From: Tigriopus japonicus
Lineage: Eukaryota > Arthropoda > Copepoda > Harpacticoida > Harpacticidae
Reading direction: 5' to 3'
Assembly (NCBI GenBank): GCA_010645155.1
Contig: CM021313.1
Location: 4,457,345-4,521,344, forward strand
DNA: 64,000 nt
The stretch's first letter is position 1. The number at the start of each line of letters is the position of its first letter. The notes under the pieces are model-generated. The model worked only from the letters and a program-made list of their open reading frames with translations. It did not search any database and was not told the origin of the DNA. The position numbers were made by a program, and so were the translations under genes. Of this stretch, positions 21,726-60,180 are shown in pieces.

Positions 21726-22265
21726 TTAACTTCTTTTAGAGCCATTGTGCATTTGGAGCGTAGTTTCCGCCAAAGCCGTGGAGTCGCTCAGGGCAGGTTG
21801 ATGGATCCAAATGCTGGATAAGTAAACAAGTTCGTCTTCAGATTTAACAAATCCAATGTCTCTCACAACACTTTGGTTCATGCGTAATTGCTCTTGGTAA
21901 TGATCATGAATGGTTGTTCCACTTTGAAGCAAACTTGGATTGATTCCTGGAGATTCTTGATCAGGACTCGCCTTCATTTGTTCCAAGTCAATTTGAGCTC
22001 TAAGCTTCTCTAGATTTCGTGTTAGATTGTCAACACGATCCTTGAGATTGTCGAGAACCTCTTGAAGGTCATAAAAATGTTCTTGAAGAGTCGTAGAAAA
22101 CTGTGTCGAGAAATTGTTCGCTTTCAATTCGGCTCCAATATTTTCTAAAATCAATTTTCCACTTTTTACATCCCCTTTCCATCTCTCCAAAGAAGTAAGA
22201 AAACCACTGACAATTTTAGCCTTGGGACCTTCAAGAGGCTTTCCGCCATTGGTTACTTTGGACAT
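21726..22265 (-). CDS. CINP: CDK2-interacting protein-like (CINP)
   Basis: A 179-residue single-exon protein, mostly helical, with a coiled coil at about 55-100. The C-terminal motif YLSSIWIHQP corresponds to the diagnostic YLSMWLHQP region of CINP, and the spacing to the end is also similar. CINP in animals binds Cdc7 and Cdk2 at origins and also ATRIP, supporting ATR checkpoint signalling. It is the last gene of a four-gene same-strand cluster: the stop of the F-box/WD40 gene lies 97 bases upstream. A 3' splice site (CATCTTGTAG at 22279-22278, or TTGCAG at 22269-22268) lies 2-12 bases before the ATG. Slightly shorter than the human protein (about 212 residues). Confidence 0.75.
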   Translation of the reverse strand: MSKVTNGGKPLEGPKAKIVSGFLTSLERWKGDVKSGKLILENIGAELKANNFSTQFSTTLQEHFYDLQEVLDNLKDRVDNLTRNLEKLRAQIDLEQMKASPDQESPGINPSLLQSGTTIHDHYQEQLRMNQSVVRDIGFVKSEDELVYLSSIWIHQPALSDSTALAETTLQMHNGSKRS

Positions 22266-22362
22266 AACTGCAATTTCCTACAAGATGAAAAAGCCTGTTG
22301 TTAATACATGAAATGTAGACCAATTAATGTTCAAAGCTTCATGATATTTAATAATGGAACAA
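22266..22362 (-). other. Operon-type junction: F-box/WD40 to CINP
   Basis: 97-base spacer. Read on the minus strand it has ATTAAA (22352-22347) shortly after the stop, a pyrimidine-rich stretch, and AG acceptors at 22279-22278 and 22269-22268 immediately before the CINP ATG. No first exon with a donor fits in this space. Confidence 0.6.
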
Positions 22363-23511
22363 TTATTGCCAGAAATTCACAATTCGAATCGAATTCAACT
22401 CTGAGCTCGCAGAAGAAGCTTGATCCATTTGAATGGCCACATTATCGCTGAATTTCTTGAGAGAAGACACATAAATTGCCAAGGACGTTCTATCTTTGAG
22501 TAAGTCTTGCATTGAATATACACGGATCATATATTTGCTCATTTCATCAAGCAGGTTGCCTTGTTCATCTGTTTCACCACCTCCACACTCAACAGCCACC
22601 ATCAAATGGTTTTGGGTTAATTTTAGATCGAGAGGAGCCCAATCATTACGGAATAACTCTACGAATTTCAAGCACTGTGACGAGAGCTCCTGATCTAGGC
22701 TCCAAATTTCACAGCCCCAACTGTTCGAATATTGGTTAGGTAATGCGGCAATGTATGGATGAGCAAAGCCGAGGCACAAAATGGAGAATTGACACTTGAA
22801 TACCCGAATCATTTCTCTGGAGACCATGTTAAACACCTTGATGAATTTGTCCTCTGAGCCTGTCACAATCAAGTCACGATCAACTTCAACATGGGTCACA
22901 CTTCTTTTATGATGACGCAAACGTTCAATAAGACTCAATTGGTGATCCTGACGGATGTGATAAACGTGGATCATGGAGTCTCCAGAGCACGTGATCACTT
23001 TATCCTTGTAGATCTTCACACCCCAAATGGATCCTCTGTGATCTTGGATACATTGAATTTTGCGAAAGGTTTTTCTGTCCAACACATGGATATCAGAATC
23101 TTCTCCCACACTGACAATAATGTCCTTGTTCATGTCCAATTGGACACAAGTGCCCCTATGAAGCTCCAATGACAATTTTCTCTGAGAGGTACGGCGATCA
23201 AAGACATTAATAAATCCATCGCAAGTACCACACAACACCTCAGCTTGGTCCCATTTGATATCGAAGATTTCTCCAGAAGCGATATAGAACCGTGAGCTCA
23301 TCACCTTTCTTGCTTTCCAATTGTGTTTCAACTTGACCTGAAGCCTTTCACGACCTGGAATGGAGTTTTCGATCCATTTGTGAATAAAATCCAGCCATGA
23401 ATGGCACACAAGTTTGGCTTTCATTAGATCAGAGCTCGAAAGATTCAGGAAGATCTCTCGCACTACCGGATTCAAATTGCGCGCCAAAAGATGATCAATG
23501 ATCGAATCCAT
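22363..23511 (-). CDS. F-box and WD40-repeat protein
   Basis: 382 residues. An N-terminal F-box-like segment (about 10-50: NLNPVVREIFLNLSSSDLMKAKLVC, key part VREIFLNLSSSDLMKAKLVC) is followed by about six WD40-type blades (about 75-330), such as HRGSIWGVKIYKDKVITCSG and HKRSVTHVEVDRDLIVTGSE. The layout suggests a substrate receptor of an SCF ubiquitin ligase. I cannot assign a specific ortholog. The start at 23511 is chosen because a strong acceptor (TTTCTTTTAG, AG at 23517-23516) lies four bases before it and the frame upstream of that is not conserved-looking. It sits 76 bases after the BTB-Kelch stop and 97 before CINP, on the same strand. Confidence 0.85.
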   Translation of the reverse strand: MDSIIDHLLARNLNPVVREIFLNLSSSDLMKAKLVCHSWLDFIHKWIENSIPGRERLQVKLKHNWKARKVMSSRFYIASGEIFDIKWDQAEVLCGTCDGFINVFDRRTSQRKLSLELHRGTCVQLDMNKDIIVSVGEDSDIHVLDRKTFRKIQCIQDHRGSIWGVKIYKDKVITCSGDSMIHVYHIRQDHQLSLIERLRHHKRSVTHVEVDRDLIVTGSEDKFIKVFNMVSREMIRVFKCQFSILCLGFAHPYIAALPNQYSNSWGCEIWSLDQELSSQCLKFVELFRNDWAPLDLKLTQNHLMVAVECGGGETDEQGNLLDEMSKYMIRVYSMQDLLKDRTSLAIYVSSLKKFSDNVAIQMDQASSASSELNSIRIVNFWQ

Positions 23512-23587
23512 TTGCCTAAAAGAAAAAAGTAAGATGAATCGATTATTCATGAATTTTCTTCGTTTTTCTTCTTTGCAAGGTTTCCAT
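23512..23587 (-). other. Operon-type junction: BTB-Kelch to F-box/WD40
   Basis: 76-base spacer. The AATAAA signal (23592-23587) overlaps the BTB-Kelch stop codon. About 70 bases on, a pyrimidine tract with TTTTCTTTTAG gives an acceptor whose exon would begin GCAAATG. Confidence 0.65.
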
Positions 23588-25075
23588 TTATTCCGAGTTG
23601 TAAACAACCACTCCAAAACAACCATTGTAGGATTGTAAATCAACACCTTTACCGGTCCAAACAATCTCAAAACGTTTGCTAAGAATGTCATAAACTTCTA
23701 TCCTAGCCTCGTCAAAGTTATAAATCCGATTGTCCACCAAACACATGTGCACACATTCATCCTTGAATTGTCCCACAAATTCCAGGACCTCTGTTTTCTG
23801 GCCAACAGGGCAAAACTTGAACAAATGGCAACCCTGCGAAAAAAAGATGGCGTCGGCGGAAGTCACGACAGCGCTCTCTATGAAAGACACGCAGACTCCT
23901 TGAGGTAATAGACTGACATCGAAGTCAAACCTACTCCAATCAAGCTTTTCCGGGTCAGATAAAGACCCTCGGACGGAATTGGGTCCAAAAACGAACAGAT
24001 CCCCGTTGAAAACACAGCATGGAGGACTGTTCATTGGACAAGGTAATCGCGCCAAAGTCGCACAAGTCTTGGTATCCATATCCAATAGGAATACGGCGTC
24101 GGATTTGACTCGGAACCGTCCATAACCTCCGACTAAGATGATGTAGCGCTCGTTGTCAGTGCAGATTCCCATATGTCGAATGGGCACGGGCAATTCCATG
24201 ACACAATCCCAAACTTGGAGGATTGTGTCGTAACGCCAAATTTTGCGGTTCCAATTACTTCGACCGATGATCTCTTCGCCCCCTAGGGAGTAAATGTAAG
24301 GACCTAGGGCACACGTTCTGAAACCAAGTGGACAGGAACTGGTTGGTTTCATTGGAGGTAGGCAAATTGTCCGGCTTAAGGTGACGTTTTTCGGGTTAAA
24401 ACTGTGAATGTAACCGGAAGATCCTTGAACACTGGGTTGGATAGGAAGCTTGCGAGATTTTACAAGAGACTGCGGAGAATCCTGGATTTGAATTTGAACG
24501 GCTTGTAACAGCTTCACGAATTTGTCATTTGGATTCTGAGGTGGACATGATTCAAATCGTTGATGGATTAGTTGGATCAAGTCTGTTTCGGATTTGACGT
24601 GAAGCTCTGGACTAGAAACAATGGAGTAGACATCTTCTTCAGTTAGATCATTCCAATGTTGATTAGTTAACAAGGTGGGGAAATGCCATAAAATCAAGGC
24701 TTTGGCCTTTTTGGCCAATCCGCTCAGTCTATAAGTGTCGGCGGCTTTCCAAACTTTGAGGGCGTTATCATGTTGCAAATTGTCTTCGAGAAACTTGTGG
24801 CAATGTAAGGCCATCATATCCAGATGGAACATATCAGCGATCTTCAGCACTTCATAGACATTGTCATCATCCATTGGGATGGACTTCCCTTGTGTGAATT
24901 CGAGAACGGCCTCAAAATGATCTGGATTCACAGCTTCCAAGGTAACTTCAGTTTGATCCAACTCGACAAATGGCGACGTGAACATGGCCTCAAAGTAGGG
25001 ACTGATCTCGATTAAATGACTCTTGCTCACTTTAAAAGATTTGGAGCCGACATTCAAAGTAATTTGATCGGACAT
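23588..25075 (-). CDS. BTB-BACK-Kelch-type protein
   Basis: 495 residues. The BTB/POZ domain (about 1-105) reads LNVGSKSFKVSKSHLIEISPYF with the classical FEAVLEF and VYEVLKIADMFHLD parts. A BACK-like helical region (about 110-205) has DNALKVWKAADTY. A degenerate Kelch propeller (about 255-480) has blades such as YSLGGEE and IILVGGYGRFR. Proteins with this plan are adaptors of Cullin-3 ubiquitin ligases; the substrate is unknown. The ATG at 25075 is immediately preceded by an acceptor (TCTTTTCCAG then GAAC), 96 bases after the HUS1 stop. Same strand as HUS1, F-box/WD40 and CINP. Confidence 0.85.
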   Translation of the reverse strand: MSDQITLNVGSKSFKVSKSHLIEISPYFEAMFTSPFVELDQTEVTLEAVNPDHFEAVLEFTQGKSIPMDDDNVYEVLKIADMFHLDMMALHCHKFLEDNLQHDNALKVWKAADTYRLSGLAKKAKALILWHFPTLLTNQHWNDLTEEDVYSIVSSPELHVKSETDLIQLIHQRFESCPPQNPNDKFVKLLQAVQIQIQDSPQSLVKSRKLPIQPSVQGSSGYIHSFNPKNVTLSRTICLPPMKPTSSCPLGFRTCALGPYIYSLGGEEIIGRSNWNRKIWRYDTILQVWDCVMELPVPIRHMGICTDNERYIILVGGYGRFRVKSDAVFLLDMDTKTCATLARLPCPMNSPPCCVFNGDLFVFGPNSVRGSLSDPEKLDWSRFDFDVSLLPQGVCVSFIESAVVTSADAIFFSQGCHLFKFCPVGQKTEVLEFVGQFKDECVHMCLVDNRIYNFDEARIEVYDILSKRFEIVWTGKGVDLQSYNGCFGVVVYNSE

Positions 25076-25171
25076 GTTCCTGGAAAAGATACAAAAACGA
25101 AGAAGGTCACAACGTGGGAGGTTAGTCCGAGAATCCTTTATCACAGAGAGATTTTATTTGCCAATTCAAAC
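25076..25171 (-). other. Operon-type junction: HUS1 to BTB-Kelch
   Basis: 96-base spacer. On the minus strand AATAAA (25158-25153) lies just after the HUS1 stop. About 70 bases later TTTTTGTATCTTTTCCAG gives an acceptor (AG at 25081-25080), leaving a leader of only GAAC before the next ATG. Confidence 0.65.
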
Positions 25172-26605
25172 TCAGTCGTGAATGGCAGGCACAAAGTACT
25201 GAAGACAAACGTCGTCATGGATCAGGAACAAGTGCAACATCCGCTCCTCCACCAAGTTACAAATCACGCGATTGGGTCCAATTTGTTCGCCATTGAGCAG
25301 CAAACTCAATTTCTTGAGATCCACTCGAACCGACACGAAATCCTCATCATGGTCGTCATCCTCACTATTCGGGTCTTCGTTTTCCGGAGGAACTCTTCGA
25401 GAGGCATCATTCAAAGCTTGAAACCGGGATTGATTCAGGGACTCGTCAAACTTGGGTTTGGCACAGTTAGTGAAGTGCGTGATGACTTTGAGTAGATCGG
25501 ATTCGAGCACAAATTGAAGTTTTCCTTGGTTATTTGCCTCCAAAGTCATGCGTTTCCCCATGTTCTTGTAGCGATCCACTAACGACTTGACTAATTTCAG
25601 TTCGGGCAGATAAATCGAGACCTGCAATAAATAAAATAATAGCGTTTTTCCTTCCTCGTTATCTAATTATTTAGACGGCATTTTGCAGTGAGCAGACGGG
25701 ATAACTGAAATTTAAATTCATGACTCTTAAAAGGTAGCAAAACTAAATTCCAATTTTCGTGGGGAAATGACATTAACTTTTGGTACTAAGCTTCAATAAA
25801 TCCTAACCTCACTTTAACTGTCGTAGTATGACGAGCTATTCAAATAATTTGCCGCGTTGATATTTCAAATTTTATTCATGGTTTTTATCTATTGGTGATT
25901 TTCCATTGCAGACCTTTCGGCTTTTGATGTTGTGAAATAATTCATTTGCCCTTATATTTGATATCTCATTTCGATAAATTAGAGCTCAGGTTGACAAACC
26001 ATCATTACGTTCAAGATACTTAAAAGAAAAAAATGTATGATGAAGTTTGCAATTCTCCCTATTTCCGTTAGAGTTTCAAAGAATTTTCCACAAGAAAACT
26101 CGGAACTAACCTGGAATGGGGGAATGGCGGGTTCTTGAAATTCGTTCCATTGCGAGCGCGGAATCAAAACCACGGGAAAATCGTGCGTCACTTGTCGAGA
26201 AGCGCCCGATGCCGCCGCCAAATGGCCCGATGATGCCAGTTCCAGTTCAAAGGATAAACAAGGCGAATCCCGTTTCTTGGTCAGTTTCATCTTGACGCTT
26301 TGCGCCGATTGGCTATTTTTCAACGCCATTAGATTCTTGCTCATGGCATCGGGCTCCAATTGGAGGTAAATCTCGTTCTCAGTAGGCGTGACCCCTTCCA
26401 TTTGATAGTCTTGAAAAAGATCTTTAGGTTTTCCCTGAACCCAAACATCTCCCCCGGGAGCCATTCCTCCCACGGCCATCAAGTAAAAATGGTCGCGGGA
26501 AAGACGAAATACGCACGCGTTTTTACTTAATTTGGCCATGGTCTGGATGATATGATAGAATTTGCGGATGGATAAGCCATCGGTTAAACGGGCACGAAAT
26601 TTCAT
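25172..26605 (-). CDS. HUS1: Checkpoint clamp subunit HUS1
   Basis: Subunit of the nuclear RAD9-RAD1-HUS1 (9-1-1) sliding clamp that activates ATR signalling at damaged DNA. Exons 26605-26111 and 25621-25172 (intron 489 bp, CAG/GTTAGT donor, TTGCAG acceptor, phase 0); 314 residues. The first exon starts MKFRARLTDG and has FQDYQMEGVTPTENEIYLQLE, and then VTHDFPVVLIPRSQWNEFQEP. The second has VKSLVDRYKNMGKRMTLEAN and ends CLQYFVPAIHD. All are close to animal HUS1. It is longer than the human protein (280), partly through an acidic insertion (EDPNSEDDDHDEDF) in the second half. It has no 3' splice site just before its ATG, unlike the three genes downstream, which fits its being the first gene of the cluster. 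Confidence 0.95.
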
Positions 26606-32868: not shown

Positions 32869-35388
32869 ATGGTGATGCAACCTCCGATGGGCGGGGCTCA
32901 TCGAGCCGGACCTTTGAAGCAGTCCAACAAAAGCCACAACACGGGCCGACATCGCTCGAAAGGCGCCGTGGATCGGGCTAATAAAGGTCGGGTGAGTGTC
33001 AAAGTGGCCACGGTCAAATCCGGACGCGGACATCGATGGGTCCAAAAACGCAAAGACCGAAAGTATCAGATGAGCCAACTGCGCAGCAAGAAGAAAGCCG
33101 AAGTTTGGGCTCAGAAACGAGCTTTGGGCGCGGCCGACGCGCCGCCTATTTTGACGGCTTGGCTGGATTGTCAGGCTCAAAACGCGGAGTTGATTCCGCA
33201 AATGGAGGCGTTACTCGGGGCGTGTGACGGGGAGATGCGAATACGTCGTACACCCCGGGCGATCCATTTAGCTTGTCCGCGATTCAAACAACGCTTCGCT
33301 TTCGTCCAACCTCCGGCGAATGATCTTTTAAGCGTCTTGGATACGGCAAAAGTATGCGATTCCATCGTGTTTTTGTGCTCAGCCTTGGAATTGGAGGCCG
33401 ATGGGTTGACTCCGGCCTTGGAAAGCGTTTTAGCCGCGGTTTTAGCGCAAGGCTTGCCCACGCCGCCTTGCTTCGTATTGACCGATATCGCCGATTGGCC
33501 GCTCAAACGGCAAAATGAGGCCAAAAAGATCTTGCTCAAAGGGCTCAATCAACGCTTCGCCATCGACAAGATTTTCACCTGTCGAACCGAAGCCGAGGCT
33601 CTCTTGTTTTTGCGTCACTTAGGATCGCAAAAACGCCGGATCAACAGTCTCCGAGAGAAACGTGCCCATCTAGTGGCTGAAAAAGTGGAATTTTTGGGCG
33701 AAAGTGCCTTGGGCACGCTGAAGGTCACCGGTTATGTTCGAAGTCAAACCTTATCGGCCGATCGACTCGTTCATCTTCCGGGAATGGGCTCATATCAAAT
33801 CCAACAGATTGAATCGGCTCGAGACGAGTTTCCTCTGGATTTGAATCGCCGAGCCGGATCCAATCACGCTGATGTCGATATGGGTGCCACTGGTGGAAAC
33901 GTCATTGCCACGCCCAATCCCGCCGTGCAGGAATCGCTCGTGATGGAAAACGAGCCCGATATGTTTGACGGTGAGCAATACCTTTCACCCGAAGAAGAAG
34001 CCTTGGCCCAGCAAACTTTATTATCCGATGATCCGGGTAAGAAAGCCGTTATTCGAGTGCCCAAGGGAACATCGGAATATCAGGCCGCTTGGATCATGGA
34101 ACAAGCTCGAGCCGCTGGTGAAGAAGATGAAGACGAGTCTGAAGACGATGAAGAAGATTCGGATGAAGAGATGATTGAGCGCGAGATGCAAGAAGATGAG
34201 GACGACGATGTGCCGGAAAACGAGGATGAATACGAAACCATGACCATCACCTCCGAAGCCAACATGGATGAAAATTACGATGAGAAACACGTCAACTTTG
34301 CCGAAGAGAAGTTGCTCCTGAACAAAATGAAAGAAGCCCGAATGGAGGCCATGTTCCCGGATGAAGTGGACACGCCCACTGATCAACCCGCTCGCCAGAG
34401 GTTCCAAAAATATCGTGGTCTCAAGAGTTTCCGCACTTCTCCCTGGGACTACAACGAAAACCTAACCCCGGATTATGCCCGCATTTTCCAATTCGAGAAC
34501 TTTAACCGAACCAAAAAGCGCGTTCTCAACGAAGAAGTGGACGGAGCCGAGCCTGGCTGGTATGTATCGATCTACATCAAGGATTTCCCTCAACACATGG
34601 CTCTAGAAATCCTCGCCAATGAAAACATCGCCCAACCCTTGGTGGTTTACAGCATGCTTCCGCATGAAAACAAGATGTCCGTGCTGAACTTTGTGGTCAA
34701 ACGACACTCCCTTGGCCATCAGGACCCGATTCGGTCCAAGGAACGCCTAATCTTTCACTGTGGCTACCGGCGTTTTGCCGCTTGTCCAATCTTCAGTCAA
34801 CACACTAACGGGAGTAAACACAAGTACGAACGGTTTTGGCGGGAAAGCGCAACTGTTGTGATGACAGTTTTCGCGCCCATTGTTTTCCCGCCAGCCAATG
34901 TAGTGGTTTATCAAGAACTAGCTAATGGCCGCCATGATTTAGTAGGAACCGGTTCATTGCTTTCTTGTGACCCTAATCGACTGGTTATTAAGAGAGTTGT
35001 CCTGTCTGGCGCGCCTTTCAAGGTACAGAAAAGAAGCGCCGTGATCAGGTTCATGTTCTTTAATCGGGAGGACATTGCTTGGTTCAAACCAATCGAGTTG
35101 AGGACCAAATATGGACGTCGAGGGCATATCAAGGAACCCTTAGGCACGCATGGCCATATGAAATGTATCTTTGATAAACCCATTAGCCAACAGGATACTG
35201 TTTTATTGAACCTGTTTAAGCGAGTTTTTCCCAAGTGGAACTATGATCCACACGTACCAAAACCCACAACAGGAGAAGAACTTATGGAGGATGAAGGCTC
35301 TGAGGTGCTACAATTGAAGAAAAATCCACAGAAAAAGAAGAGCATCCTTAAATCGAACTCAACGGAAGATCAAATGGCGTGCGATTAA
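32869..35388 (+). CDS. TSR1: Pre-rRNA-processing protein TSR1
   Basis: Late 40S ribosome assembly factor, a GTPase-like protein that has lost nucleotide binding. Single exon, 839 residues (human 804). The basic N-terminus has HRAGPLKQSNKSHNTGRHRS, the family start. An AARP2CN-like domain follows at about 215-310. A long acidic region lies at about 410-475 (EEDEDESEDDEEDSDEE). The conserved C-terminal half includes YRGLKSFRTSPWDYNENLP in local form, then IKDFPQHMAL, the GYRRFAACPIFSQH block and TKYGRRGHIKEPLGTHGHMKC. The start is the ATG at 32869; a TTG just before it is not needed. The POLR1C start codon lies 87 bases after the stop. Confidence 0.96.
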   Translation: MVMQPPMGGAHRAGPLKQSNKSHNTGRHRSKGAVDRANKGRVSVKVATVKSGRGHRWVQKRKDRKYQMSQLRSKKKAEVWAQKRALGAADAPPILTAWLDCQAQNAELIPQMEALLGACDGEMRIRRTPRAIHLACPRFKQRFAFVQPPANDLLSVLDTAKVCDSIVFLCSALELEADGLTPALESVLAAVLAQGLPTPPCFVLTDIADWPLKRQNEAKKILLKGLNQRFAIDKIFTCRTEAEALLFLRHLGSQKRRINSLREKRAHLVAEKVEFLGESALGTLKVTGYVRSQTLSADRLVHLPGMGSYQIQQIESARDEFPLDLNRRAGSNHADVDMGATGGNVIATPNPAVQESLVMENEPDMFDGEQYLSPEEEALAQQTLLSDDPGKKAVIRVPKGTSEYQAAWIMEQARAAGEEDEDESEDDEEDSDEEMIEREMQEDEDDDVPENEDEYETMTITSEANMDENYDEKHVNFAEEKLLLNKMKEARMEAMFPDEVDTPTDQPARQRFQKYRGLKSFRTSPWDYNENLTPDYARIFQFENFNRTKKRVLNEEVDGAEPGWYVSIYIKDFPQHMALEILANENIAQPLVVYSMLPHENKMSVLNFVVKRHSLGHQDPIRSKERLIFHCGYRRFAACPIFSQHTNGSKHKYERFWRESATVVMTVFAPIVFPPANVVVYQELANGRHDLVGTGSLLSCDPNRLVIKRVVLSGAPFKVQKRSAVIRFMFFNREDIAWFKPIELRTKYGRRGHIKEPLGTHGHMKCIFDKPISQQDTVLLNLFKRVFPKWNYDPHVPKPTTGEELMEDEGSEVLQLKKNPQKKKSILKSNSTEDQMACD

Positions 35389-35475
35389 ACAGAAATAAAA
35401 CACGTTCATACTATCCGCAAATTTGTAATCTTAATTCTAGAATTTTATGTTTTTCTTCTTTCATCTAGAGCAAAC
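35389..35475 (+). other. Operon-type junction: TSR1 to POLR1C
   Basis: 87-base spacer with AATAAA at 35394-35399, then about 68 bases, then a long pyrimidine tract (TTTTTCTTCTTTCATCTAG, AG at 35467-35468) and only seven bases before the POLR1C ATG. This is the cleanest of the five junctions. Confidence 0.7.
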
Positions 35476-36489
35476 ATGGAGGAGGACTTTGCCAAAATCT
35501 CTTTGAAGCAGTTTGAGATCACCAACACGTCCTCGGCAGCCTTTCCAGGCACAGTCGAAGGCCAAGGATGGACCCCTAAAGACTTTGAGAAGACCCTCAA
35601 GATCCAAATCATCAAGAAAGACGGTATGGATATGGAATTTGACTTGATCGGCGTGGATCCAAGTCTAGCCAACGCCTTGAGACGAATCTTGATCTCAGAA
35701 ATCCCTTCCATGGCCATTGAGAAGGTCTATGTGCACACAAATACATCCATTATTCAAGACGAAGTGTTGGCTCATCGCTTAGGTTTGGTTCCTCTTAAGG
35801 CCGACCCCAGATTATTCGCATGGAAAGGTCAAGACACGGATGATTTCGGCACTCCCAAGGACACTCTTGAATTCGAAATCAAGGTCAAATGCACCCGAAT
35901 ACCTGGCGCTCCTGAGACTTCTGACAACAAAGACGCACTCTATCAGAATCACAAGGTCGAGTCAGATGTGATCAAGTGGATCCCTAAGGGAGATCAGAGC
36001 GATTGGATCAATGAAGACCCTGGGCCTGTGGAGAAAGATATTCTCTTGTCCAAAATGAGACCTGGTCATGAGATGGACATCAAAATGTACGCTTACAAAG
36101 GCCTTGGACGCGATCATGCTAAGTTTTCACCGGTAGCCACGGCTTATTATCGACTTTTACCCGAGATCAAGATGGTTCAAGATGTGACAGGTGAGGCTGC
36201 GGAGCGATTACAAAAATGCTTCTCACCAGGCGTTATTGAGTTGAAAGGCCCGAATAAAAAGGCTGTGGTGAAGAATGCACGATATGATGGGTGCTCAAGG
36301 AATGTGTTTCGACATGATGATCTAAAAGATACTGTGACCATGGACAAGGTTCGAGATCATTTCATTTTCACCATTGAAAGCGTGGGAGCCATTTCTCCCG
36401 ATGATCTCTTTCGGATGTCGATCGATGTACTGGAGGCCAAAGTTGATTATTTTCTGGAAGAATTGGATGCCTGTCTCACTTTAGGCTGA
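35476..36489 (+). CDS. POLR1C: RNA polymerases I and III subunit RPAC1
   Basis: Shared alpha-like assembly subunit (AC40) of RNA polymerases I and III, nuclear. Single exon, 337 residues (human 346). The alpha-type N-terminal motif is clear: VDPSLANALRRILISEIPSM (about 59-78), followed by IEKVYVHTNTSIIQDEVLAHRLGL in part and VPLKADPRLF. Later conserved blocks are LLSKMRPGHEMDIKMYAYKG (in part), GRDHAKFSPVATAYYRLLP and the C-terminal FTIESVGAISPDDLF dimerisation element. It lies 87 bases behind TSR1 on the same strand; both proteins serve ribosome production. Confidence 0.96.
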   Translation: MEEDFAKISLKQFEITNTSSAAFPGTVEGQGWTPKDFEKTLKIQIIKKDGMDMEFDLIGVDPSLANALRRILISEIPSMAIEKVYVHTNTSIIQDEVLAHRLGLVPLKADPRLFAWKGQDTDDFGTPKDTLEFEIKVKCTRIPGAPETSDNKDALYQNHKVESDVIKWIPKGDQSDWINEDPGPVEKDILLSKMRPGHEMDIKMYAYKGLGRDHAKFSPVATAYYRLLPEIKMVQDVTGEAAERLQKCFSPGVIELKGPNKKAVVKNARYDGCSRNVFRHDDLKDTVTMDKVRDHFIFTIESVGAISPDDLFRMSIDVLEAKVDYFLEELDACLTLG

Positions 36490-37227: not shown

Positions 37228-38565
37228 ATGCCTATGGGACGCAGGGTCGTGGTCACTGGATTAGGATTAGTCTCACCATTAGGCGTGGGGGTCCAATCCA
37301 CCTGGCAACGTCTACTAGAAGGACAATCTGGCGTCCAAAACTTGGCTCAATCAGCTTTGGTGGCCTCAAGCTCCGTTGCCCCCGAAATCTGGGCCTCATT
37401 GCCTTCTCAAGTAGCCGCTATGGTTCCTAGGGGCTCTCAAGCCCATCAATTTGACCCAGACCGCGATTTCCCTACCCATGAAAGACGTATGATGTCCACA
37501 GCCATGAAATACAGTCTCATGTCTGCTCATGAAGCTTTACAAGATGCCCAACTGACCCATATCAAAGACCCCGTGCATTTGACCCGAATGGGCGTTGCAG
37601 TTGGCATGGCTATGGTTGATTTGGAGTACATCTCCCAAAATTATGCCGCCCTAACGACAGGACACTACAAAAAAGTGGGCCCATATTTTGTGCCAAGGAT
37701 CTTGCCCAATTTGGCACCGGGACATATTAGTATCGAATACGGTTTCCAAGGTCCCAATCATGCTGTATCTACCGCATGTGCTACCGGTTCCCATGCCATA
37801 GGGGATGCTTATCGGTTTATCCGGAATAATTCGGCTGATGTCATGGTTTGTGGAGGAACCGAGGCTTGTGTAGACCCTTTGGCTATTGCTGGTTTTTCAC
37901 GGGCAAGAGCTCTAAGTACTCGATTTAACGATCGTCCCCAAGAGTCTTCTCGACCTTTTGATCGGGATCGCGACGGTTTTGTAATCGGGGAAGGTGCGGG
38001 AATTTTGGTCTTAGAGGAGCTACAACACGCTTTAGAGCGAGGAGCCCATATTTATGGGGAAGTGTTGGGCTATGGTCTATCAGGCGATGCCCATCATATC
38101 ACAGCTGGTCCATCTGATGGCCATGGGGCGGTTTTGGCCATGAAAGCCGCATTTAAATCGGTGGGAGCCGAGCAAATCGATCATTTGTGGCATATTAATG
38201 CTCATGCCACTTCTACACCTTTGGGAGATGTAGCCGAATTGCGGGCTGTTCAGACTCTTTTGGCGGATTCGAAGAATCGACCCTTTGTCACGGCGAATAA
38301 GGGAAATCTCGGACATTTACTTGGAGCTGCTGGAAGTGCGGAATCGATTTTGGCGCTCAAAAGCATGCAAACTGGAATCATTCCAAGGACCATAAATGTG
38401 GAGAATTTGGACCCAGACATCGATAGTCAAATCAGAATTGTTGTAGGTGAAAACGTGGATGAGTCAGAGCTAAATTCTGAAAGGCCACAACGGCTCACCT
38501 TGAAGAACTCCTTTGGTTTTGGGGGAACCAATGTCAGCTTGCTATTTGGACAATATACAGGATAA
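37228..38565 (+). CDS. OXSM: Beta-ketoacyl-ACP synthase, mitochondrial type (OXSM/FabF-like)
   Basis: Condensing enzyme of type II fatty acid synthesis; in animals it works in mitochondria and supports lipoate formation. 445 residues, single exon. It has RRVVVTGLGLVSPLGVG at the start, the nucleophile C184 in STACATGSHA, H326 in NAHATSTPLGD, and K358/H363 in NKGNLGHLLGAAGS, and ends with LKNSFGFGGTNVSLLF. All catalytic residues are present. Odd: the conserved domain begins at residue 5, so no mitochondrial presequence is encoded from this ATG, and no upstream in-frame extension is open. A presequence exon farther upstream or a non-mitochondrial location are both possible. RPAP3 follows after 65 bases. 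Confidence 0.93.
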   Translation: MPMGRRVVVTGLGLVSPLGVGVQSTWQRLLEGQSGVQNLAQSALVASSSVAPEIWASLPSQVAAMVPRGSQAHQFDPDRDFPTHERRMMSTAMKYSLMSAHEALQDAQLTHIKDPVHLTRMGVAVGMAMVDLEYISQNYAALTTGHYKKVGPYFVPRILPNLAPGHISIEYGFQGPNHAVSTACATGSHAIGDAYRFIRNNSADVMVCGGTEACVDPLAIAGFSRARALSTRFNDRPQESSRPFDRDRDGFVIGEGAGILVLEELQHALERGAHIYGEVLGYGLSGDAHHITAGPSDGHGAVLAMKAAFKSVGAEQIDHLWHINAHATSTPLGDVAELRAVQTLLADSKNRPFVTANKGNLGHLLGAAGSAESILALKSMQTGIIPRTINVENLDPDIDSQIRIVVGENVDESELNSERPQRLTLKNSFGFGGTNVSLLFGQYTG

Positions 38566-38630
38566 TATGAACACAATATTCATGCTCAGAAATGACAAAA
38601 CTTTAGTTCTTTTCAGGTCTCCAGAGCACC
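38566..38630 (+). other. Operon-type junction: OXSM to RPAP3
   Basis: 65-base spacer with an acceptor (TTTAGTTCTTTTCAG, AG at 38615-38616) 14 bases before the RPAP3 ATG. No canonical AATAAA is visible here, only AATATT-like variants. Confidence 0.55.
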
Positions 38631-39995
38631 ATGGCTAGTCCGGAAGAGATGCGAGCCTTGACGGATCAATTCAAGAACAATGCCGAGGATCTTCAATCTT
38701 ATATGCGGGATTTGAATCATTGGGAGGAAGAAATGAAACGCAAAGATGAGCAATTGAGAGCTCTCAAACGTGGAAATCCAGGTGGGATCGCGGAAATCGG
38801 AGACAAGAAGAAATCAGGCGAGAACGAAAATCAGCTCACGATTCAACAAATGCATCAGAAAGCCATCATGGAGAAGGAGAAAGGCAACGAATACTTCAAG
38901 AAAGGCCAATATGACATGGCCATAGAGTGTTACTCCAGAGGAATTCAAGCTCATTCGACCAATCCGATGATTATAGCCAATAGAGCTATGGCGTATTTAA
39001 AGATCCAACGTTTTCAAGAAGCTGAAGATGATTGCACCTTAGCTCTGGCTTTGGATCCCACTTATGTCAAGGCATTCATGAGACGTGGTACGGCCAGGAT
39101 GAGCTTGAATCGTGTTTCTGAGGCTGTGGAAGACTTTCAAAGGGCTGTCGAACTAGAACCTAAGAATAAACAGGCCAAAACAGACCTTGAACAAGCCTTG
39201 ATGAAACTTAACAACACCGGGAAGAGTGTTCGAACCAAAAAACAGGCTGCTCTTCCTCCCAAGAGTGTGAACATTCATCAAGAACCTCTTCTAAAGCCGA
39301 AATCAAATCGATTGGATCAAGATACTTCCCATGAATCTGTTTTAAAGTCGCTCAAGCTCGATGACTTTGACGATAAAACAGATTCCAAAGTCCCAAACAA
39401 TCAAGATCATGCCTCCTCGAATGATATCTCAGTCAAAATGAAGGAGACTCCGTCTTCTTTTCTCACTCCGGTGTCATCCAAGAAAATCGAGCCTAATCCC
39501 ACGGAATTGCCGGATATTGATTCCAAACGCAAGTTCAAGTTTCAAGAGGAACCCAAGTCAACCATTATTATTCCCAAGAAACCCGCCCAAGTACCCAAAC
39601 CCAAACCTATTCCCGTTGAAGTGAAAGTCGAGCTGAAACCTGTGGATCTGGTCAAACCAAAATCCTCCGTTCAATTTTATTCTCATTGGAGACGCCATTC
39701 TTTGGAAAGGCGAAGTCTCTACCTCCAATTGTTAGGTTCAAAAGACTATCCGATGATCTTCAAGCAATCGTTAGAACCCCAAGTATTCACGGAGATTTTG
39801 GAGGCATTACTACAAGTTCAATCAGGAGTGGGACAACATTTGTTGGGGTTATCGCAAGTGCCCCGAATTTCGGCCTTGGTCATGTTTCTTTCAGAGCAGG
39901 AGAAATCTTTCATAAGACAATTGGTCGAGAAAGCCAAGAACGACGCAGGTTTGAGTGAAAGTGATCTACAAAAAATAACATCAACGTTTAACTGA
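38631..39995 (+). CDS. RPAP3: RNA polymerase II-associated protein 3-like TPR co-chaperone
   Basis: R2TP/HSP90 co-chaperone that helps assemble RNA polymerases and snoRNPs in the cytoplasm. 454 residues, single exon. The N-terminal NAEDLQSYMRDLNHWEEEMK matches the RPAP3 start. One TPR domain (about 80-190) has EKEKGNEYFKKGQYDMAIEC and ANRAMAYLKIQRFQEAEDDC with the carboxylate-clamp asparagine and lysine/arginine positions. A low-complexity linker follows, then the RPAP3 C-terminal domain (about 340-454), with FKQSLEPQVFTEIL. It is shorter than human RPAP3 (665), which has two TPR domains. Poly(A) signal at 40006-40011. It lies 65 bases behind OXSM. Confidence 0.88.
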   Translation: MASPEEMRALTDQFKNNAEDLQSYMRDLNHWEEEMKRKDEQLRALKRGNPGGIAEIGDKKKSGENENQLTIQQMHQKAIMEKEKGNEYFKKGQYDMAIECYSRGIQAHSTNPMIIANRAMAYLKIQRFQEAEDDCTLALALDPTYVKAFMRRGTARMSLNRVSEAVEDFQRAVELEPKNKQAKTDLEQALMKLNNTGKSVRTKKQAALPPKSVNIHQEPLLKPKSNRLDQDTSHESVLKSLKLDDFDDKTDSKVPNNQDHASSNDISVKMKETPSSFLTPVSSKKIEPNPTELPDIDSKRKFKFQEEPKSTIIIPKKPAQVPKPKPIPVEVKVELKPVDLVKPKSSVQFYSHWRRHSLERRSLYLQLLGSKDYPMIFKQSLEPQVFTEILEALLQVQSGVGQHLLGLSQVPRISALVMFLSEQEKSFIRQLVEKAKNDAGLSESDLQKITSTFN

Positions 39996-41407: not shown

Positions 41408-41960
41408 CAGACCTGTTCAAGATACTTTGAAAAAGTATGTAGATAAGATAGTATTTTCCGCAAAGTATCTAGATAAAGATAGTTTCCGATACTTCTCAAA
41501 AAATGTATCTAGATAAAGATAGTTTCCGATACTTCTCAAAAAATGTATCTAGATAAAGATAGTTTCCGATACTTCTCAAAAAATGTATCTAGATAAAGAT
41601 ACTTAAAGATACATTCTCAAAAAATGTATCTAGATAAAGATATATCAAGATAGTTTGCCGAAAAAAAAATATCCAGATAAAGATACGTTAAGATACTTTC
41701 CCGAAAAAAGTATCTAGATAAAGATAGTTCAAGGTAGCTTCCCGAAAAAAGTATCTAGATAAAGATAGTTCAAGGTAGCTTCCCGAAAAAACTATCTAGA
41801 CAAAGATATTTAAAGATACTTTCCCGAAAAAAGTATCTAAATAAAGATACTTAAAGATACATTCCCGAAAAAAGTATCTAGATAAAGATAAAAGACAGTA
41901 TATCTTTTTTAATATCTTTTCTTTTACCTTTTATCTAGATAAGATAATTGAACAGGTCTG
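41408..41960. mobile_element. hAT-type MITE containing a minisatellite
   Basis: Ends CAGACCTGTTCAA and TTGAACAGGTCTG are perfect inverted repeats. The 8-bp target GACCTTGC is duplicated exactly at 41400-41407 and 41961-41968. The interior is an imperfect array (about 41430-41930) of roughly 46-bp units with GTATCTAGATAAAGATA. No ORF. CAG ends and an 8-bp duplication indicate the hAT superfamily. Confidence 0.9.
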
Positions 41961-49370: not shown

Positions 49371-52300
49371 CTACTCTTCCCTCTTGGCCGCTAGAGTGCC
49401 GGATTCTCTTATTCCAGCCTGTCTCTCGGGCTCCATGGCAGCCATGGCGGTGGCGGAGGCCACAGCCTCAACAGCAGTCGCAACATCAAGTGCGTTGTCG
49501 GTACCCACTCTGGCCTTGATGGCATCAGCTTGATCCTCGGCCGCCCTGATCATGGCGTTGGCCATGTCCTCCTTGGCTCGGGTCACGGCCAGCGTCACGA
49601 CCTGGGCCATGTCCTCCTTGACCCGCGTCACGGCCTGGGCCATGTCCTCCTTGACCCGCGTCACGGCCTGGGCCATGTCCTCCTTGACCCGCGTCACGGC
49701 CTGGGCCATGTCCTCCTTGGCCCGTGTCGCCTCCCGTTGAGCCTTACATTTCTCTCTGGGGGAGAATACACAAAGTTATTAGTAAGGACGAGCAGAAAGT
49801 GCAAATAAATATAGCCTTTAAGTTACCAAAGGCTTCAGAAAAATGTACCCCAACGTGCAAAACAAAGTGCAGAAAAAGGTTGAAAGTGCAGATAAATGTC
49901 GAAAAAGAACAAGTACCTTGCATTTGGACTTGAAAAGTCCCTCATAGTCAAAGTGCCCACGGCGCTAAATTAAGCTGGAGAAGTCAATTGTAAGTTCCAA
50001 AGACATTTGACACTAGTTGTGAGATGAAGAGACAGCACAAATATTTGAGTTCGATTAATTAATTAAGTCACAAGACAAAAAAGGGATAACAAGTCAATAA
50101 AAATACAATAGGGAACAATCTTTTGAATTTTTCATTCTATTCCCTATGGTGGTCCAATGGTTGTCTCTACCTAAACTATTGAAGAAATCAATTGAGCCAT
50201 TGTTTTAATATCGCTTGACCAAAGTCATGGGCCCTGGTGATTGCAAGACACACTAGCTCATCCTAAAGAAGCTCATGGGAAAGAAGCGAAAACTAGGCCA
50301 AGTTGTTGGGGTTTTTAAGCTTCGATTGTTGCCGTTGTTGTCGCCACCATCAACTCAGGAAGTCCAAATTACAAAGAAATTCGATTTTGCGATCAGTTTA
50401 AGTAAATTATGATAATACCGATCTATTCAGTTGCCATATTGCATAATAAGCAGTGCTCAAGTTATTGTGTTAATATTTTTCGGATTGGAAGGCTCCTTGT
50501 CCTGCATTTTTTTTTGAAGCTTCACGTTAACGCCACTTGTCGCTAGGGTCAAGTTTTCGCTTCTTTCCCATGAGCTTCTTTAGCTCATCCTGGAAAACAA
50601 ACCCCGTCATTTTCCTTGACGTGGGGGACGCTTCAACCTCGGAAAGTGGGAGTGGGCCTCAAACGGAGGTTCAAAGTACGCCAAATTGTCCCAAAACCTA
50701 GTGTGCACTTTTGATTTCCGTCGTGGTGTGCGCAGGCGTGTCTTTCCGTGACCAGGATTGAACATGTTTCGTATCATTCATTTTGGAAGACCTATCCCTT
50801 CGATCAGGACTGTTACTTCCAACATCAATTTCCAACCCATACCAAAACGACCGTAAACTCGTTTCAAGCATCAATACTGGCCCTGTTTTGAGACCTTCGA
50901 GTCGTGGGCGTGGCTTGAAGTGGATGTGTCAGTCGATTCTACTACTTACTAACACCTGTGCAAAATTTTACACATAAAGATGGAATTGGTTGGATCACCC
51001 ACCTACAGAAACACTCTGCCATGCCATTTCAACCATGAATTGGACAGTCTTGCTTCCTTTTACAGCATCTTTCATTTTTCATCACTTCTGTCCTTAAAAT
51101 GATCTTTAATTTGGCGTTATCTCGTCATATACTGTGCTTATCTAGTCCAATGGGATCAGATCATTTAATTGTGATATTAAAAATTTCTTTAACAAGGACA
51201 TTACAAATTATTCATTCTTACCTGTTTGCAGAGAAGCCAATCACATCTTGAACAACGTACTCATGTTGCTTGACAGATCATCGTGGTTTTGAAAGCCTCA
51301 TTATATCAAGAAAAAAAGAAATGGTTTCTGCCAATTCATCACACAATCAAAGTATTAGTATAATGGAAGGTAGCAAAATAAGATCTTTCTGAAAGCTTTA
51401 CTTCTACAGGGAACGGTCAAATTGTTAAACCCCCAAAATGATCAAAAGGCACAAACCATCGCACAGAACAATACAATGCAAATCATTTTTAAGGTCAATT
51501 CAAGATCCACACTTCTTAAACAACGTACACTTGTGGCCTGATAATTTGGCATAACTTTTTGAAGCCCTATTTTATCAGGAAAAAAAATTCTTCTGTCAAT
51601 TTGTTCACAACACCATCGAGTTGTTAAGATATTGGAAGAAAATAAGATGATTCTAAAAGCTTGCATTTGCAGACTGCGCTTAAAGTGTGAATCCTAAAAA
51701 AATGATTAAGGCACAAACATATTTACATAAGTAACATTGCCCATCATTAAAGTAACACAATATCTGGTTTTTCCAGGCATCTAATCATACATCTAATCAT
51801 AAGCACAAAAGTTTTCAGGTAGCACAAAAATAATGCTTAAAGCTATCCAACAATGGTTCCAGGATAGCTCGGTACATGGGATAACTCAACACAGGAAAAC
51901 TGGGTACAACGGAAAACTCGGTACAGCGGAAAACTGTGTACACCGGAAAACTCAGTACTGGAAGATTCAGTACAGGAAAACTGGGTACAGCGGAAAACTG
52001 GGTACAGCAGAAAACTCAGTACAACAGAAAGCTGGGTACAGCGCAAAACTGGGTACATGGGAAAACTGGGTACATTGGAAAACTGGGAACATCAGAAAAC
52101 TGGGTAAAGGGCAAAATTGGATGCATGGGTGCAACGGAAAACTGGGTACTTCTTACAACGGAAAACTGGGTACTGCCGAAGGTGGGTACAACATACAACT
52201 GAATACATCTTAAAGCCATATCAACATATTTAACCTGGCAATTTAACTATCAATGTAGGCGCAGAGGAACTTTCATTAGCTTTATTAAAACATTTTTGCA

Positions 52301-55186
52301 AGCTCTGAAAAAATAGCATTTTTCTAAACCTGATTTATGGGTCAAGTGTTTTCGTTCATTTTAAAGCTCAAGGAAATTAAGCTCTAGCACTGCACTTACT
52401 TCTTCAAATTACCATAGTTTCATCGCTAAAATTGCTGGAACAAGTCCGAAAAAGGGTGAGACGGGCAAAACCTTGAAAGAATTAGTTGCAGGATGTATTT
52501 TGCTTCTTGTAAAAACATTGCAAGCTTTCCAGGCAGATAAAGTGTGTTTCATCTCACTTTAGATGAATTCAGTTTTTTGCTCTACCCAGTTTTCCGCTGT
52601 ACCCAGTTTTCTGCTGAACCCAGTTTTCCGCTGTACCTAGTTTTCCGCTGTACCCAGTTTTCCACTGTACCCAGTTTTCCGCTGTACCCAGTTTTCCACT
52701 GAACCCAGTTTTCCGGTACTGAATGTTCCAGTACCGAGGTTTCCGATGTACCCAGTTTTCCGCTGTACCGAGTTTTCCGTTGTACCCAGTTTTCCTGTGT
52801 TGAGTTATCCCATGTACCGAGTTATCCTGGAACCATCCAACAATAGTTCCGAAAAACTTGCATTTTTTGGACATTCTATGAATCAAAAAGATCTCTGGAT
52901 TTTGATGCTATGATTGTAAAATCCTTGATTAAGATAATGAATTATTTTTACCTTGCACAACTGTGCTGTCTTCATAATGATTTACATTGCATTGTTTTTC
53001 AGCAAAGTTTGCGCCTTTTACCATTACACGGATCCAAGTTTTCAGAATTATCTGATTTATTTGTTATCTTCAAATCTCTTAACCATTTGATGGTGAGGTG
53101 AACAAATTGATAGAAATAATACTATTTTCCCCCAATAAAATGGGGCTTGAAAAAATCAAATTGAATTGTCAAGCTACTAGTGTACATTGTTCAAGATGTG
53201 TCTGGCTTTTACTGCAAACGAGCCGGATGGAATCGACAGAAATCCTTTAGTCTCTTAGGAGCAGGAGTGTGTGAACGTTTAAAACGTAAAAAGAAATAAT
53301 ATAAACACGAATCTGAAGAAAAAAGTGCAAAAACTTTTGGCCAAATGGTGAGACAAATTTGTAGAAAGATTTTACCAGAATCTCACACTCAGGGATTTTT
53401 ACATCAGAAGTGAATCTGCTCCATTTACCATTTGAATTAAAGCTGTAGAAAACATCTAAACAATGGTAAAAATCCTTCAATCTCCATACCAAGGTAGTGA
53501 TAATCTTCCAATTTGGAATTAGCACTTCGGATTGAAGGGAGATGTCTTCCAAAATGAATGACACGAAACACATTCAATCATAGTCACGGAAAGACACGCC
53601 TGCGCACACCACGACGGAAATCAAGAGTGCACACCAGGGTTTGCGACACTTTGGCGTAGTTAGAGCCTCTGTCTGGGGCCCACTACAACTTTCCAAGGTC
53701 GAAACGTCCCTGGCGGGGTTTGTTTTCATGTAGGTGCCCTCACTGCTTGTAGGTGTTCTCCATAGGGTTATATTATTGTTGTTTATTGCAATGCTAAAGC
53801 GTCATAAGTATGGTTGCAAAATTATATTAAGGTTGCTTCAAATGAAGGCTATAAATTTATAAATATAAATCATACCACTACGGACAAAATAGGGCCCTTG
53901 GTTGTGCTGTCTTGCTTAGCCCATTTTGGCGAATTCAAGTTTTTTCCATCTGAGCGTCCATTCAATGATTCTGGACGCAATCAATATTTCACGTTAAGAT
54001 ACCTAGGCTGGAATTGGGCCAATAAAACGTAAAATATATTTGCTGGAAAATGCGATCTAAAAATCCATTAGGACCTGAAAAGAAGCATAAAAAATTGTAC
54101 CTTTTCTCGGTATTGGCAACATTTTGAAATATTTATTTCATTCTATGGAATCCACAGAACAAATCAGCATCTTTGAATTTTTGTTTGGATCACTGTTAAG
54201 TCCTATTTTTGCAATAACACAAGGCTTGCTTGATTGCTATTTATTTGAGCAGCCTAATGATAATTTTTGCCTATTATTGACAAAACCCAACCCATGCATC
54301 TTTACGTGAAATATCGATCATTTTCCAGGGACCTTCAACCATTGAATGGCTGCCGAAATGGAAAAAACTTGGATTCCCAAAATGGGCTGAGCAACTCAGC
54401 ACAGGCCCTCTTTTGCCGCTGGCGGTATGATTTCAAACGCTCACTTGAAGCAACCTTAATATGACCCAATTGTATCAAAGAAAATATTCTTAAATGTGTT
54501 TCAAGTGACATTATTACTTCAAAATATTTGGCCCAATCATTCGTGCTTGGTCACGATATTCAGATTGGTCGTAAAAACATGGTATCAAAATGCCAAGACA
54601 TTAAATAGAGAACCTTCTAAAACTTCAGAATTTCAAAAAATTTATCCTCTAGATTACAAGATATTACAACTTAAACATTTTGTCCAAATTTCAAATTTTT
54701 CCGCAAGATGAGATTCTCTTGTTCAAGCCAAGATAGAGAATTTATGGTGAGGTATGTGACTGAAACGCTCATATTTCTTCAACGTACTGAGAATGTTTGA
54801 TTGCTAATGGAAGCTATTTCGACAAATTCAAAATTTGATCTTGAACAAAAAATTCTGTCAAAAGTTAGTAGATTTTCAAAACCTGAAATTTTCTTTCCAA
54901 TTTGTCAATTTTGGTCGAATTCGAAAATAAAAAGTGAAAATAAAGGTGAAAAATGTAAAAAGGCAGAAAGATGGGCTTATGTTACCAAAATTTTTTTAAC
55001 ACTATTCGCTTGTCCTTAGTTATTAATATGGTATGATTGTGTATTACTCAAAAAGGCTCACTCTCTCAGTAGGACGGCCCCGGCCTTGGCCTCCACGGCC
55101 TTGGCCTTGGCCTCCACGGCCTTGGCCTTGGCCTCCACGGCCAGGGAGGCCATGGCAACGGCGATTTCGGTGGTGGTGGGCGCCAT
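49371..55186 (-). CDS. Candidate two-exon gene for an alanine-rich helical repeat protein
   Basis: Two GC-rich islands in AT-rich surroundings have compatible splice sites on the minus strand. Exon A 55186-55062 starts MAPTTTEIAVAMASLAVEAK, has two to three AVEAKAK heptads (21-bp DNA repeats), and ends at GA/GTGAGC. Exon B 49755-49371 begins after CTCCCCCAG and keeps frame (GA plus A). It encodes four 11-residue repeats of the MAQAVTRVKED type (33-bp DNA repeats), then an Ala-rich region with further degenerate repeats and a stop. Joined length 169 residues, almost entirely amphipathic-helix composition, Cys-poor. The 11-mer periodicity recalls group-3 LEA and apolipoprotein-like repeats, but composition alone may explain that. 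An acceptor (TTTCTCCAG) also precedes exon A at 55212. The intron would be 5.3 kb with transposons inside. Could instead be two unrelated fragments. Confidence 0.35.
49601..49712 (-). repeat. 33-bp in-frame tandem repeat
   Basis: Three near-identical units of GGCCATGTCCTCCTTGACCC-type sequence, plus degenerate flanking units, in the second exon of the candidate repeat-protein gene. Units keep the reading frame. The array also leaves an open frame on the + strand, which I regard as a shadow. Confidence 0.8.
49756..50255. other. No gene seen
   Basis: AT-rich stretch that would be intron sequence if the two-exon model 49371-55186 is right. Confidence 0.4.
50264..50582. mobile_element. hAT-type MITE, 319 bp
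   Basis: Exact 8-bp duplication GCTCATCC at 50256-50263 and 50583-50590. Inverted ends of about 30 bp begin TAAAGAAGCTCATGGGAAAG and end in the inverse. Interior non-coding. Confidence 0.92.
50596..53733. mobile_element. Long-terminal-inverted-repeat element, about 3.1 kb
   Basis: The left end AAAACAAACCCCG (50596) and following roughly 250 bases recur inverted at 53480-53733. Shared blocks include GATTTCCGTCGTGGTGTGCG and GCAGGCGTGTCTTTCCGTGA. Flanks CATCCTGG and CATGTAGG match at five of eight positions. The interior holds a diverged direct repeat (about 51230-51420 and 51500-51690) and the inverted 17-bp minisatellite pair. No transposase-like ORF, so it is non-autonomous; superfamily unknown. 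Confidence 0.7.
51841..52855. repeat. Two mirror-image 17-bp minisatellites forming a giant hairpin
   Basis: The left arm (about 51841-52205) has about 18 units of the GGAAAACTGGGTACAGC type. The right arm (about 52575-52855) has the inverse units (TACCCAGTTTTCCGCTG). Both arms share an identical outer shoulder (CATGGGATAACTCAACACAGG and its inverse), so they pair end to end around a 370-base loop. Open frames across the arms are a by-product of the repeats. Confidence 0.9.
53734..55061. other. No gene seen
   Basis: AT-rich (about 1.3 kb). Several short ORFs without domains or splice context. No transposon ends recognised. Confidence 0.5.
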
Positions 55187-59665: not shown

Positions 59666-60180
59666 AAGTCCTGCAAACGTTAAAGTACCAACATTGATGT
59701 CAATTTGATGTTCAAATTGCACTTAGTATATGGTTCAAAAATGAAATTTTGAGTCTAAACTAAATCTGACAAACCTTAAAGTACAACCATTGATAGTTCA
59801 AGTAACAATGAAAACACTTGGTGCACTTTCGTCAGTTTAATGTTCAAATTACACCTACTATATGGCTCAAAAATGAAATTTTGAGTCTAAACTAAGTCCT
59901 GCAAACGTTAAAGTACAACCACTGATAGTTCAAGTACACTTGGTGCACTTTCGTCAGTTTCATGTTCAAATTACACCTAGTATATGGTTCATAAATGAAA
60001 TTTTGAGTCTAAACTAAGTCCTGCAAACGTTAAAGTACAAACACTGATAGTTCAAGTACACTTGGTGCACTTTCGTCAGTTTCATGTTCAAATTACAACT
60101 AGTATATGGTTCATAAATGAAATTTTGAGTCTAAACTAAGTCCTGCAAACGTTAAAGAACAACCACTGATAGTTCAAGTC
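59666..60180 (+). repeat. 122-bp tandem repeat array, about 4.3 units
   Basis: Units begin GTCCTGCAAACGTTAAAGTA. The unit starts at 59896, 60018 and 60140 are exactly 122 bp apart; the first two units (59668 and about 59764) are diverged with indels. An isolated half unit (GGTGCACTTTCGTCAGTTTA) is at about 61722-61772. AT-rich, no coding signal. Confidence 0.92.

Follow-up and report, generated by a model that had tools for sequence, protein, structure and literature searches.

Within the 64-kb stretch of Tigriopus japonicus DNA analysed here (the window), three gene units contain between them five same-strand intergenic gaps of 65-97 nt, and in all five an acceptor-like AG lies 4-14 nt upstream of the next ATG. 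A poly(A) hexamer, AATAAA or ATTAAA, is present in four of the five gaps (in one it overlaps the stop codon), four of the five also pass with a strict acceptor score, and a good cis donor is missing from the 500 nt that precede each acceptor. The arrangement is therefore wider than the single four-gene cluster that the earlier note on this DNA had described. Our tentative best reading of the layout, at a confidence just short of even, is a small polycistronic unit whose mRNAs are separated by trans-splicing. For the four-gene cluster, a single polycistronic transcript would be initiated upstream of HUS1, the upstream mRNA would be cleaved and polyadenylated at the hexamer of each gap, and a separate leader RNA, which would have to exist in this harpacticoid copepod, would be trans-spliced to the acceptor beside the downstream ATG.

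Three closely spaced gene units

The cluster had been described as four open reading frames running in one direction, HUS1, BTB-Kelch, F-box/WD40 and CINP, with a poly(A) signal and an acceptor in each intervening gap. All four were recovered in those places on the minus strand, with stop-to-ATG distances of 96, 76 and 97 nt from HUS1 through BTB-Kelch and F-box/WD40 to the CINP-like gene, and the three hexamers (AATAAA, AATAAA and ATTAAA) were located, the copy in gap 2 overlapping the BTB-Kelch stop codon (Table 1). The acceptor tracts end 4, 4 and 12 nt upstream of the ATG in gaps 1, 2 and 3, and the first bases after the acceptor, recomputed as 25079, 23515 and either 22277 or 22267, agree with the positions proposed earlier. 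Gap 2 contains no GT dinucleotide. When the gaps were dinucleotide-shuffled, a tract equalling the observed one appeared in 31, 9 and 77 of 5000 shuffles for gaps 1, 2 and 3, respectively. In agreement with the earlier note, the strict acceptor scan shows no acceptor ahead of the ATG of HUS1, with which the unit begins.

Table 1. Features of the three units, in order of transcription within each unit (positions are those of the window)
Feature	Positions	Strand	Details
HUS1 exon 1	26111..26605	-	Pfam Hus1; first gene of its unit; ATG without preceding acceptor
HUS1 intron	25622-26110	-	sole intron of HUS1
HUS1 exon 2 and stop	25172..25621	-	Pfam Hus1
Gap 1	25076..25171	-	96 nt; AATAAA 25158-25153; tract TTTTGTATCTTTTCCAG ending 25080
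BTB-BACK-Kelch protein	23588..25075	-	495 aa, intronless; Pfam
Gap 2	23512..23587	-	76 nt; AATAAA 23592-23587; tract TTACTTTTTTCTTTTAG ending 23516
F-box/WD40 protein	22363..23511	-	382 aa, intronless; Pfam
Gap 3	22266..22362	-	97 nt; ATTAAA 22352-22347; tract GCTTTTTCATCTTGTAG ending 22278; second AG ending 22268
CINP-like protein	21726..22265	-	179 aa, intronless; weak similarity
AATAAA downstream of CINP-like stop	21704-21699	-	
TSR1	32869..35388	+	first gene of second unit
Gap 4	35389..35475	+	87 nt; AATAAA 35394-35399; tract TTTCTTCTTTCATCTAG ending 35468
POLR1C (RNA polymerase I/III Rpb3-like subunit)	35476..36489	+	putative gene name within Rpb3 family
Beta-ketoacyl synthase, OXSM-like	37228..38565	+	first gene of third unit; name OXSM putative
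Gap 5	38566..38630	+	65 nt; TTTAGTTCTTTTCAG ending 38616 (14 nt from ATG); the weakest gap
RPAP3-like TPR protein	38631..39995	+	

The identity of HUS1 is firm, as both exons match Pfam Hus1 (2.4e-34 and 1.4e-35) and the protein matches PDB chains named checkpoint protein HUS1 (9.5e-62). The second gene encodes BTB (5.6e-19), BACK (7.1e-12) and Kelch domains per Pfam. In the third, WD40 is found at 1.6e-8, and the F-box at 7.8e-5 on an N-terminal fragment and at 0.0016 on the whole protein, the latter value being marginal and below the curated cut-off. The fourth gene is weakly identified as CINP-like: its match is weak (E 0.1), the four best of its seven PDB matches bear the name cyclin-dependent kinase 2-interacting protein (CINP), a stretch S-x-W-[IL]-H-Q-P is common to the protein and those CINP matches, and an AlphaFold2 prediction made from two sequences yields a mean pLDDT of 53. 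A protein search with the F-box/WD40 and CINP-like proteins retrieved one match each, at 100% and 98% identity, with the source given as 'lgn'.

The proposal that the cluster is a co-regulated DNA-damage operon gained no support: searches tied neither the BTB-Kelch nor the F-box/WD40 protein to that pathway, and of the remaining two genes HUS1 is clear and CINP weak. Co-regulation is also unsupported because eukaryotic operons commonly mix functions, and the neighbouring pairs, which consist of general housekeeping genes, are mixed as well. The gene content of the cluster is probably not functionally selected.

Those neighbouring pairs are TSR1 with POLR1C and OXSM with RPAP3, both on the plus strand. 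In the gap between TSR1 and POLR1C the observed tract is equalled by 11 of 5000 dinucleotide shuffles. The gap between OXSM and RPAP3 is unscored in the strict acceptor test because an AG sits inside its tract, and 5000 of 5000 shuffles equal it; a scan of the same gap for a canonical poly(A) hexamer found none. Scanning the window for a coding ORF followed by an acceptor-bearing gap gave eight hits: all five gaps, two ATGs within the V-ATPase gene and one further hit of low score. The Rfam scan of 20-40.5 kb returned a single match, which did not reach its gathering score. Genes that converge can also lie near each other in the window, with one pair of stops at 29987 (+) and 30069 (-) leaving 81 nt between them.

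Cis donors and control starts

For each of the five acceptors, the preceding 500 nt were scored for 5' splice sites under assumed donor frequencies. The top site reaches 4.5-6.2 bits, which for every acceptor is less than the median best of base shuffles (6.7-7.4 bits), and for comparison the donor of the HUS1 intron scores 7.9 bits; the stretches scored are mostly coding, and coding sequence may avoid donor-like sites in any event. With no good donor found in these 500 nt, an intron that starts within the gap or in the terminal part of the gene before it is unlikely. One GTAAG site occurs within the 795 nt upstream of HUS1.

Nine starts of first or stand-alone genes in the window were inspected by eye for a pyrimidine-tract acceptor near the ATG. 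Such an acceptor accompanies one of the nine (OXSM, with an acceptor-like AG 11 nt upstream of its ATG), or two if the V-ATPase a start is counted, where a proper cis donor is also visible, versus all five downstream starts (p 0.003 or 0.010, respectively, on acceptors judged by eye). By eye, the other seven first or stand-alone starts have no pyrimidine-tract acceptor, although in two of these seven, at 44554 and 5958, a purine-rich or mixed stretch ends in a CAG that is one base away from the ATG. By the strict acceptor score, the contrast is four of five downstream starts versus one of seven first or stand-alone starts.

Genome-wide signature and the search for a leader RNA

We searched the genome (194.85 Mb in 158 contigs) for a signature consisting of AATAAA followed 50-68 nt later by an 8-pyrimidine acceptor and ATG, with the scrambled hexamer AAATAA as decoy. 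The signature matched 420 times with AATAAA versus 450 times with AAATAA, counts that are not independent of each other because AAATAA overlaps AATAAA in AAATAAA. The overlap was separated over the range common to the two sets of listed matches, which takes in 85 of 100 listed for AATAAA (the 15 beyond the common range were left out) and all 100 listed for AAATAA, and thus a subset of the 420 and 450 rather than the totals. When collapsed, this subset contains 45 AATAAA-only, 58 AAATAA-only and 37 shared sites, and the hexamer background in sampled sequence is 281, 364 and 247, respectively. The hexamer-corrected odds ratio is therefore 0.97-1.0 in the listed subset, with a 95% range of 0.7-1.4 by rough hand estimate; that is, the combination of poly(A) signal, acceptor and ATG is unenriched. 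Since the signature pattern recovers two of the five window gaps, the odds-ratio range allows for perhaps 300 such gaps at most, genome-wide.

Likewise, in sampled sequence outside the window ATG comes next after an 8-pyrimidine acceptor 35 times, AGT 32 times and TGA 42 times, with no excess of ATG. No further gene pairs of this kind were seen in 75 other loci totalling about 279 kb (overlapping parts and an N run included, as are ten 10-kb stretches), which are poor ground for gene pairs because most are 3-kb pieces round snRNA or repeat matches. The lack of enrichment and of further pairs means that the window is unusually rich and that any operon system is limited. If operons do exist in this genome, only a minority of its genes would be arranged in them.

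An SL RNA gene was sought in four narrow genome-wide pattern searches, and none was found. One of these used the hairpin core of the 46-nt CopepodSL alone as query (CCAAGCTNNNNTTGCTTG, at most one mismatch), and its 99 matches versus 91 for the control are not above chance. Repeated matches to the core were considered as SL genes and rejected, those inspected being retroelement or other repeats. The other three were anchored on an snRNA promoter element, [TC]CACCA[AG]A, which lies upstream of 17 of 23 U1, U2 and U5 loci, 56-59 nt before the gene in 16 of them and 38 nt before it in one. The six loci without the element comprise three weak or shortened U1-like copies, one intact-looking U1, one intact-looking variant U2 and one degenerate U2. 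In these restrictive searches the element had to be followed by leader-like features and a GGTA or AGGTA donor at fixed spacing, and matches versus controls numbered 62 vs 51, 57 vs 46 and 89 vs 174.

The matches were inspected over their first 80 nt, with letters at hand for 54 of the 89 in the last search. A match that recurs in all three of these searches and ends in TTGCCGACYCCTG was taken for a dispersed repeat, its reverse complement CAGGGGTCGGCAA being present in four copies in the window. Two near-identical pairs of matches in the 57-match search were also set aside and taken for repeats or gene copies; one of them reads as coding by eye. Scans over parts of the snRNA clusters and of the 5S locus brought up several unassigned single element-like sites but no new repeated RNA. 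We would like to note that the failed search is weak evidence of absence, because the patterns were narrow, the match letters partial and the 5S locus next to a run of N, so that tandem arrays may be incomplete in the searched sequence.

Competing readings and known systems

The earlier note's reading of the cluster as an operon resolved by spliced-leader addition fares differently in its two parts. The layout with outron-like gaps is borne out by the five gaps, four acceptors improbable by chance, the lack of a good donor in the preceding 500 nt and the scarcity of such acceptors at the starts of first or stand-alone genes, whereas the spliced-leader step gained nothing from the four pattern searches or from the unenriched signature. 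Both of the latter results would suit mere tight packing in a gene-dense stretch, in which every downstream gene would be driven by a promoter of its own lying within the terminal part of the neighbouring gene and the T-rich, acceptor-like tracts would go unused, and the closeness of the convergent genes would suit it too. Nevertheless, we hold this to be rather unlikely, as tracts that are improbable in shuffles of four gaps adjoin the ATG in all five, and first or stand-alone genes are mostly without them.

The real-looking acceptors could instead serve cis-splicing from a shared promoter. In the animal cholinergic locus, a shared remote 5' exon is cis-spliced past the upstream gene, and by analogy a far-upstream 5' exon would be joined here to each acceptor, skipping the upstream genes. 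The DNA leaves room for such a remote exon, and the GTAAG upstream of HUS1 is consistent with one, but none of the five acceptors has a good donor in the 500 nt upstream, and three separate units would require three such exons, which makes this explanation improbable. Very improbable, in our judgement, is a stable unspliced di- or polycistronic mRNA whose downstream frames are translated by re-initiation or internal entry: short same-strand gaps and the missing canonical hexamer of gap 5 would be expected of it, but the hexamers by the stop in four of five gaps and the acceptors before the ATGs would then be pointless.

A polycistronic unit resolved by trans-splicing has its closest counterpart for comparison in C. 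elegans, where same-strand genes of an operon lie about 100 nt apart, with a poly(A) signal in the gap and an acceptor before the downstream ATG that receives SL2 by trans-splicing. The T. japonicus units resemble these in spacing, in the poly(A) signal of the gap and in the acceptor by the downstream ATG; they differ in that neither an SL RNA nor a genome-wide excess was found, and the layout is known from DNA alone. Among copepods, SL trans-splicing is proven in calanoids, where the mean 5' UTR past the leader is 24 and 17 nt in two species (PMC4664967). The earlier note's statement on spliced leaders in copepods is thus correct for calanoids; the known copepod leaders gave no match in Harpacticoida or Cyclopoida (PMC4664967). 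T. japonicus shares with the calanoid CopepodSL system the copepod lineage and an acceptor near the ATG, and departs from it in that the leader core is not above chance in its genome.

The word "operon" is absent from PMC4664967, and a literature search for copepod operons, in which subscription journals were little covered, found no report. In the accessible portions of PMC11706791, PMC12639140 and PMC5467011, neither operons nor trans-splicing are mentioned. For the chaetognath P. gotoi, the accessible portion of PMC12460157 describes genes less than 250 bp apart as candidate operons resolved by a splice leader, with 18% of genes in operons and nearly half of genes trans-spliced. As far as that portion goes, closely spaced genes as candidate SL-resolved operons are common to both animals, and T. 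japonicus differs in that its signature has no genome-wide excess.

Only a minority of genes seems to have this arrangement. It is possible, if somewhat doubtful, that T. japonicus has a restricted SL2-like system with a leader unrelated to CopepodSL, serving mainly the downstream genes of at most a few hundred polycistronic gaps. If this were true, operons would be recorded for the first time in a copepod, and likewise in Harpacticoida. If confirmed, the loci would directly test whether operons and trans-splicing re-emerged in arthropods, and as T. japonicus is a laboratory copepod, RNA data could be checked at the bases named here.

Coding features of the window

The F-box/WD40 protein retrieved Tako8 chains, which are designed propellers, as its top PDB matches (2.4e-55), and natural FBXW proteins ranked below them. 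This ranking places the central repeats of the protein near a consensus WD repeat. Elsewhere in the window, the stop codons of a convergent pair of genes, a 204-aa unassigned ORF and a proteasome subunit, are separated by 81 nt, and thus tight packing here is not restricted to tandem genes.

Locations of the features described
Feature	Sequence	Position or locus
F-box/WD40 protein	window	22363-23511
Convergent pair, stops	window	29987 and 30069
Dispersed repeat, end CAGGGGTCGGCAA	window	21396, 48304, 48685, 49281
Tandem arrays	window	41462-41890, 49592-49728, 51894-52106, 52570-52795, 59699-60179
Two 5S rRNA genes, 293 bp apart	G000:C132	L024 6507-6918
Element-bearing U1/U2/U5 loci	G000	L038-L040, L042, L046-L050, L052, L053, L055-L060

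Repeats and the 5S rRNA locus

The end of the dispersed repeat occurs as four exact copies in the window versus none in 100 shuffles, and the repeat is also present in three examined loci, one of which overlaps the window. This end resembles that of a DNA transposon. Unit lengths of the tandem arrays are approximately 41, 33, 17, and 122 nt, with the 17-nt unit present in both orientations. The 5S rRNA gene pair adjoins a run of N, and a 64-nt stretch containing TATA occurs twice around it.

Upstream element of the snRNA genes

Across the T. japonicus genome (G000), the motif [TC]CACCA[AG]A was found upstream of the gene in 17 of 23 U1, U2, and U5 loci, at a distance of 56-59 nt in all but one of those 17. 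This motif is likely a proximal sequence element of T. japonicus snRNA genes, and it provides a handle for the discovery of further snRNA-type genes.
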